Positions 21,854 through 28,019 of a stretch of DNA of 64,000 nt are shown piece by piece. This DNA is from Demequina sp. NBRC 110056 (GTDB lineage: Bacteria; Actinomycetota; Actinomycetes; Actinomycetales; Demequinaceae): positions 1 through 64,000 of the forward strand of contig NZ_BBRM01000007.1 in NCBI RefSeq assembly GCF_002090155.1. The letters are read 5' to 3'. The notes beneath the pieces were generated by a model. It had not been told where the DNA came from and made no database searches. It worked only from the letters and a program-made list of their open reading frames with translations. The position numbers were made by a program, and so were the translations under genes. Numbering within the stretch: the stretch's first letter is position 1; every line of letters begins with the position of its first letter.

Positions 21854-21950
21854 CGACACTCTCGAACATCCGAGCGTCCGACACCCCGGTGGCGCGCCCG
21901 CTTCGAGCGCGGAGCGCGGCGTGTCGCGAGCGAGATGTTCGGAAGTGTCG
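21854..21950. repeat. 97-bp nested palindromic element, copy A1
   Basis: The ends CGACACTCTCGAACATC and GATGTTCGGAAGTGTCG form an outer stem; inside, CGACACCCCG faces CGGCGTGTCG as a second stem. A second element of exactly the same length and plan lies at 24940-25036. It occupies the spacer between dnaB and rplI and has no coding sense. Confidence 0.6.
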
Positions 21951-24939: not shown

Positions 24940-25036
24940 CGACACTCCCGAACATGCGCGCGGACGACACCCCGCGCATCGGCCCTCTCCAGGGCGCGAG
25001 CGCGGCGTGTCGCGAGCGAGATGTTCGAAACTGTCG
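24940..25036. repeat. 97-bp nested palindromic element, copy A2
   Basis: The outer stem is CGACACTCCCGAACATG against GATGTTCGAAACTGTCG; the inner stem is CGACACCCCG against CGGCGTGTCG. The interior contains CGCATCGGC at 24975-24983. Same length and plan as copy A1 at 21854-21950. It lies between two convergent genes just downstream of the PBP stop codon, where it could also serve as a terminator. Confidence 0.6.
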
Positions 25037-27518: not shown

Positions 27519-27635
27519 CGGCGACGTCTCCCCTGACAGTACGAACCAATTCTGCCCGCGACACCCCGCCGGAGCGCCGATGCGCGGCCTGGCACCGGCG
27601 TGTCGTCCACCCTTCTGGTTCGCACTGTCAGCGGG
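27519..27635. repeat. 117-bp palindromic direct repeat, copy B1
   Basis: Begins CGGCGACGTCTCCCCTGACA and ends CACTGTCAGCGGG. The outer stem CTGACAGTACGAACCA faces TGGTTCGCACTGTCAG (15 of 16 pair); an inner stem CGACACCCCG faces CGGCGTGTCG, and the loop holds GCCGATGCG at 27576-27584. Copy B2 lies 289 bp downstream in the same orientation with only scattered differences. Confidence 0.75.
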
Positions 27636-27807
27636 CCGGGCGGTTGCGGCGCGCCTCGCTGCCCGCCGGGAGGCCGTACCGCTCAACACACAGCGGTGAC
27701 GGGTGAGGATCCTGCGACAGGTGTGCCGTCCCACCACGCACAACAGTCACGCGCGTCCCAGCCGTGTGGTGAGCGGTACGGCGCGCGCCCGGCCCGCCAC
27801 CCGGCAT

Positions 27808-27924
27808 CGGCGACGTCTCCCCTGACAGTACGAACCACCTCTGCCCGCGACACCCCGACGGAGGGCCGATGCGCGGGCTGGCACCGGCGTGTCGTGCGCC
27901 TTTCTGGTTCGCACTGTCGGCGGG
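27808..27924. repeat. 117-bp palindromic direct repeat, copy B2
   Basis: Same length, order of stems and inner 9-mer (27865-27873) as copy B1. It ends 22 bp before the palindrome that covers the padR promoter. The two copies together fill most of the 633-bp spacer between the divergent PBP and padR genes. Confidence 0.75.
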
Positions 27925-27946
27925 ACTGCGGGGATGCCGCGTGCGA

Positions 27947-27963
27947 TGTATCGTGGCGATACA
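27947..27963. promoter_or_regulatory. perfect palindrome TGTATCG-TGG-CGATACA, probable PadR operator
   Basis: A 17-bp palindrome with seven-base arms overlaps the expected -35 region of the padR-ino1 promoter (TACTGT at 27973-27978 as -10). PadR regulators usually bind short palindromes in their own promoters, so this is the obvious autoregulatory operator. Confidence 0.65.
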
Positions 27964-28019
27964 ACGCTCTGCTACTGTTGCGGACTGCGCTGATCACCCA
28001 GGAGACGAGAGGAGCGCCC

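Follow-up and report, generated by a model that had tools for sequence, protein, structure and literature searches.

What are the two long repeats that lie between a penicillin-binding protein gene and a padR gene of Demequina sp. NBRC 110056, and how did they come there? The original prediction described two 117-bp direct repeats, each a nested palindrome, that fill this spacer, and took them for a miniature transposable element or a REP/BIME-like hairpin family. Both repeats are present, at 27519-27635 and 27808-27924 of the window (the whole stretch of 64,000 nucleotides analysed). They are 117 nt each, 92% identical and in direct orientation (both on the plus strand), with a start-to-start distance of 289 nt. 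The predicted nested structure was confirmed in full, as the outer arms, the inner boxes and the centre word GCCGATGCG were all found. In the first copy, the core CTGACAG..CTGTCAG spans 27533-27631 and consists of the outer left arm CTGACAGTACGAACCA (27533-27548, plus strand), the inner left box CGACACCCCG (27559-27568, plus), the inner right box CGGCGTGTCG (27596-27605, which is CGACACGCCG on the minus strand) and the outer right arm (27616-27631, minus strand, reading TGGTTCGCACTGTCAG on the plus strand). In the second copy, the core (27822-27920) has its outer arms at 27822-27837 (plus) and 27905-27920 (minus) and its inner boxes at 27848-27857 (plus) and 27885-27894 (minus). These two palindromes are hereafter called A.

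The repeats do not fill the spacer, since a third, different palindrome of ~104 bp (27676-27779), here called C, separates the two A copies. It belongs to another family and lies within 27673-27782, with arms at 27676-27690 and 27765-27779. The A pair sits between divergent genes, namely the penicillin-binding protein gene on the left (PF00912, PF00905; 25074-27386, minus strand) and the gene of a PadR-family regulator on the right (PF03551; 28020-28604, plus strand). Upstream of padR there is also an operator-like palindrome CGATGTATCGTGGCGATACAAC (27944-27965), which the A insertions leave intact and which is kept in all the spacers of relatives that were compared. Two further palindromes of the window (21855-21949 and 24941-25035) are of a B type, which has the span and the inner boxes of A and GACAGTTCCGAACAT-like outer arms.

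The A palindrome proved to be a dispersed family. Its consensus consists of outer boxes GACAGTnnGAACCA in inverted orientation, facing each other, and inner boxes CGACACsCCG, and the span between the outer box ends is nearly fixed at 94-97 bp. A 14-nt A arm with at most one mismatch occurred 20 + 20 times in the 2.94-Mb genome, compared with 2 + 3 times for the reversed control, which is far above chance. Nearly all of these arms pair up, 94-97 bp across, and in the sequence examined 45 of the 48 arm pairs lying within 400 bp fell in the span bin of 90-99 bp. Strict pairs with both arms exact numbered 16 in the source genome (G000) and were found in 9 of 44 Demequina genomes, the reversed control giving 0 in both cases. 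The search for further copies proposed in the original prediction was therefore positive. Outside the window, the copies of this genome share only 67-78% identity with the window pair, yet the boxes and their spacing are kept. A search of phages gave no match and a search of plasmids gave two distant matches, so nothing points to recent spread by phage or plasmid.

The comparison with relatives revealed empty sites. The PBP-padR spacer is 633 nt long in G000 versus roughly 180-390 nt in 27 relatives, those with a PBP match that extends to the start codon or almost so (in two further relatives the measured interval takes in part of the PBP gene). The A palindrome was absent from this spacer in 29 of 29 other genomes, and the conservation among relatives that would have argued for a local duplication was not seen. 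The nearest relative, G032, has C in the spacer without A. At seven other A sites, A was absent in G032 at 3 of 3 resolved sites, in G016 at 3 of 5 and in G030 at 3 of 4, while one A copy is common to G030 and G000 by descent. Several of the spacers hold palindromes of other families instead. This pattern of occupancy fits repeated gain, with loss also possible site by site, as one genome per species, several of them drafts, does not fully separate the two. At the several A sites compared for target-site duplication, the junctions were too diverged to resolve a clean one.

The original prediction also called for a transposase with matching ends. A gene with matching ends does exist, but its product is a nuclease and not a known transposase. 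This gene of ~296 codons lies outside the window, between hpt and ftsH (G000:C3:389248-390135), and is bracketed by two A palindromes (G000:C3:389044-390172), the 3' end of the frame running into the right one. In eight genomes A arms flank the gene on both sides and the downstream arm overlaps the 3' end of the reading frame. The right-hand palindrome arm (L119:6079-6136) encodes PTVRT, the conserved C-terminal tail of the A-type nuclease.

The protein combines an AbiEi_4 winged helix with an MTES_1575/DUF559 nuclease domain (PF13338 + PF18741/PF04480). Its AlphaFold model (mean pLDDT 88.9) was compared with known structures using Foldseek, which matched it to the AbiEi antitoxin 6y8q and matched its C-terminal domain to the Vsr-like homing endonuclease I-Bth0305I (target TM 0.75) and to NGO0050. 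Across 70 aligned proteins, conservation of the residues E179, D206, E216, D218, H223 and D232 is 87-94%. No AbiEii toxin gene adjoins it in the same operon, its neighbours being hpt and ftsH. A link of the A palindromes to any DUF559 gene was rejected, since genomes that lack A palindromes have DUF559 genes too; what matters is the matching allele alone.

The best nuclease match lies between a phosphoribosyltransferase gene (hpt-like) and ftsH in nearly all of 30 Demequina genomes, and the palindromes that bracket it there are of several types: A in eight species, GACACTTCGGAACA (B-like) in G032, CTsCGCACGGA in several genomes, and others. Both G014 and G032 carry a related gene without A arms. 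Placed on the protein tree, the palindrome types required 11 changes, the minimum possible, compared with a mean of 19.6 for shuffled labels (0 of 200 shuffles as low), although the labels were assigned by eye, which could favour a low count. Palindromes of the CGCACGGA type numbered 38, 33, 31 and 17 in G022, G062, G029 and G060 (reversed control 0 everywhere), and it is the CGCACGGA arms that the hpt-ftsH genes of these four genomes carry. Dispersed copies thus abound mainly where the matching allele sits. The exceptions are G004 and G012, with 16 and 12 palindromes of the CGCACGGA type and hpt-ftsH genes with other arms, and G060, where A palindromes are abundant and the hpt-ftsH gene likewise carries other arms. 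These mismatches mean that some palindrome families lack an identified partner; such families may be relics or may belong to a paralogue. The B palindromes of G000 number at least about 20 (the genome-wide totals for B and C are lower bounds) and have their matching arms at the nuclease gene of G032, which fits the idea that they may be relics of a former, since replaced allele. For the C family (GTACCGCTCAACACAC..GTGTGTTGAGCGGTAC), which often adjoins A and was also found in L031, L037, L058, L126 and L127, no partner nuclease gene was found.

The replacement of alleles is best seen in the pair G020 and G011. To the left and to the right of the locus their sequences are 95-96% identical, whereas the nuclease genes have no detectable nucleotide similarity and the palindromes differ. 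The similarity breaks off on reaching the left palindrome from outside and starts again just past the right one, which shows that palindrome-gene-palindrome cassettes have been swapped at the outer edges of the palindromes. A milder form was seen in G034/G014 and G000/G032, where the neighbouring genes are about 89-93% identical and the nuclease proteins 60% and 55%, respectively.

Bracketing is not confined to this locus or genus. Inverted similarity of the two flanks above 29 bits was found for 23 of the 29 hpt-ftsH genes of Demequina, for 10 of 19 Demequina DUF559 genes outside that locus and for 13 of 18 testable nuclease genes from other families. Among ordinary genes the count was 2 of 43, and among mismatched pairs of flanks 18 of 254. 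By the same test, about 30% of the nuclease genes had no detectable palindromes. In G083 the palindrome arm is present at both flanks of the gene and at four further places, and in Actinomyces oris (NZ_CP116225.1) a 122-bp palindrome stands on each side of the gene and is found at four places in the record. In L161, L172, L164 and L302 the nuclease genes have simple inverted-repeat flanks, which are more like classical transposon ends. MTES_1575-type nuclease domains were detected in 76 of 79 genomes sampled from the order, a count that includes large multidomain proteins.

The prediction of a miniature dispersed element is thus supported by the many genomic copies, the empty sites in relatives and the cognate enzyme gene with matching ends. 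Its other half, membership of the REP/BIME family, found no support, as the unit is ~95-99 bp and not 20-40 bp, the enzyme is of another kind than the Y1/HUH tyrosine transposases and selection for folding has left little trace. We consider it likely that the repeats are non-autonomous mobile palindromes of ~95-99 bp partnered with the AbiEi-HTH + Vsr-like nuclease, similar in kind to REPIN-RAYT and served by an unrelated enzyme. Dispersal, differing occupancy, bracketing, co-segregation with the protein tree and cassette exchange can be read directly from the sequences; that the nuclease binds and nicks DNA and acts in trans to move the palindromes is our inference. In the mechanism that we propose, the palindrome would be a symmetric set of boxes for protein binding, spaced at nearly fixed distances, in which the outer boxes would give each family its specificity and the inner boxes would be common to several families. 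The winged-helix part would bind the outer boxes, the nuclease domain would nick the DNA at the palindrome or close to it, and the palindrome would then be copied to new intergenic sites by repair or replication. Meanwhile, the whole palindrome-gene-palindrome cassette could be exchanged between species at its fixed locus, and the specificity of the family would change with it.

The sharp borders of the cassette exchange and its fixed locus, together with the resemblance of the C-terminal domain to the Vsr-like homing endonuclease I-Bth0305I, also agree with a homing-type cassette. The nuclease would then cut chromosomes carrying another allele, homologous repair would copy the cassette, and the dispersed palindromes would arise by another route, e.g., replication slippage. 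Homing requires homologous flanks, however, and by itself does not explain solo palindromes dispersed at unrelated sites, so that we regard it as an unlikely explanation of the whole. It should be noted that homing and mobile palindromes can both be true together.

AbiEi-type proteins can be plain regulators, so binding to the boxes need not mean mobilisation. The nuclease could accordingly be a regulator or nucleoid protein, with the dispersed palindromes as its operators and the copies beside its gene serving autoregulation. The symmetric boxes, the near-fixed spacing and the lack of clear covariation do look like protein sites, and the fold match is to a family of known DNA-binding antitoxins. 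But the palindromes stand on both sides of the gene, the sites differ between near relatives, the nuclease residues are retained, and palindrome types are replaced wholesale between species. Moreover, many copies lie between convergent genes, where a promoter is not expected. Taken together, these points make a regulon of this kind improbable.

The palindromes are often intergenic, and in the RNA folding check proposed earlier both strands folded better than shuffled sequences (z -2.5 to -3.5), as would be expected of structured RNAs or terminator hairpins. Meanwhile, the analysis of 57 A copies indicated little or no covariation of paired positions, expected of a structured RNA family, among the positions that vary. 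At freely varying arm positions, pairing was about as frequent as in shuffled copies, or at most marginally better, and the few mirrored positions that reached p 0.02-0.05 are uncorrected for many tests. This test of mirrored positions led us to reject folding as the main selected property, and folding is probably not what is maintained in the A palindromes. The search of Rfam gave nothing credible, only chance-level matches of plant miRNAs to the C palindrome, and the window pair lies between divergent genes. Structured RNA or terminators are therefore a very improbable explanation, and the conservation of box sequence and spacing points to protein sites on double-stranded DNA and not to an RNA hairpin.

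The arrangement in the window recurs. A-C-A triplets, each made of two direct-orientation A copies around one C palindrome, were found at three unlinked places (27535-27918 of the window, L127:10285-10701 and L126:1283-1631). Identity between the two A copies of a triplet is 92, 92 and 88%, with common flank beyond the arms, whereas between triplets it is 67-77%. As the two other triplets show the same arrangement, the window pair probably goes back to one A insertion that was then duplicated locally around C, judging by these identities. A long target duplication as the origin of the triplets was rejected, since the repeats do not abut C, and an ornithine-cyclodeaminase-like ORF beside the palindromes in L127 was examined and is not a DUF559 gene. 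That the pair is a mere local duplication with no mobile element behind it is barely credible, since duplication, which agrees with the two window copies being each other's closest relatives, may explain why there are two of them and not why there is one, and as a full explanation it is refuted by the many unlinked copies of only 67-78% identity and by the empty sites.

The mobile palindromes and their nuclease were also compared with known systems. RAYT genes are flanked by their own REPs, with which they co-evolve; they evolve faster than their neighbours, and REP abundance tracks the gene (Nunvar 2010, PMC2817692; PMC8049555). The system described here resembles them in that one gene, whose locus is fixed and syntenic, has a copy of its own palindrome on either side. 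The nuclease gene likewise evolves faster than its neighbours, its palindromes co-evolve with the protein, and the dispersed palindromes are intergenic and follow the cognate gene in abundance, with the exceptions named above. It differs in the enzyme, as RAYT is a Y1/HUH tyrosine transposase, and in the palindromes, which are ~95-99 bp long with two box pairs, compared with 20-40 bp for REP. The GTAG/CGTC-type tag of REP is absent from the A box consensus, there is little covariation, and the copy numbers are in the tens, not hundreds. The EDxHD homing endonuclease I-Bth0305I (PDB 3r3p), which is described as binding a target of nearly 60 bp as a dimer (PMC3943268), is similar in its catalytic fold and its E/D/H/D residues, but the domain studied here is fused to an AbiEi-type winged helix, is not in an intron and is associated with dispersed palindromes. 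With MITEs the palindromes have in common that they are short and non-coding, with inverted ends, many copies, empty sites and a larger enzyme-coding element with matching ends; unlike MITEs and their mobilising IS, a full palindrome and not one end stands on each side of the gene, and the enzyme is no known transposase. The AbiE type IV toxin-antitoxin systems share the N-terminal winged-helix domain and the fold of the AbiEi antitoxin, but here a C-terminal nuclease takes the place of an adjoining AbiEii toxin and the neighbours are hpt and ftsH.

In the open-access literature, 14 papers mention DUF559 and, judged mostly by titles and abstracts, none connects it with palindromes (subscription literature and preprints lay outside the search). 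The nuclease-palindrome system looks like a parallel to REP-RAYT that evolved independently and had gone unreported. More broadly, we lean, with some reserve, towards the view that the AbiEi-HTH + MTES_1575/DUF559 family, widespread in actinobacteria, drives its own private dispersed palindromes, in parallel with REPIN-RAYT and evolved independently of it. A Vsr-like nuclease and not a tyrosine transposase would then copy the palindromes through the genome, and specificity would be switched by swapping palindrome-gene-palindrome cassettes at one chromosomal site. The ~300-aa members of this family carry no annotation beyond hypothetical, DUF559 or AbiEi-family protein, and the link to palindromes gives them a testable job. 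It also explains a class of species-specific intergenic repeats, and the palindrome boxes at once supply predicted target sites for every enzyme. If the link is true, the REP-RAYT way of life would have evolved twice, with unrelated enzymes.
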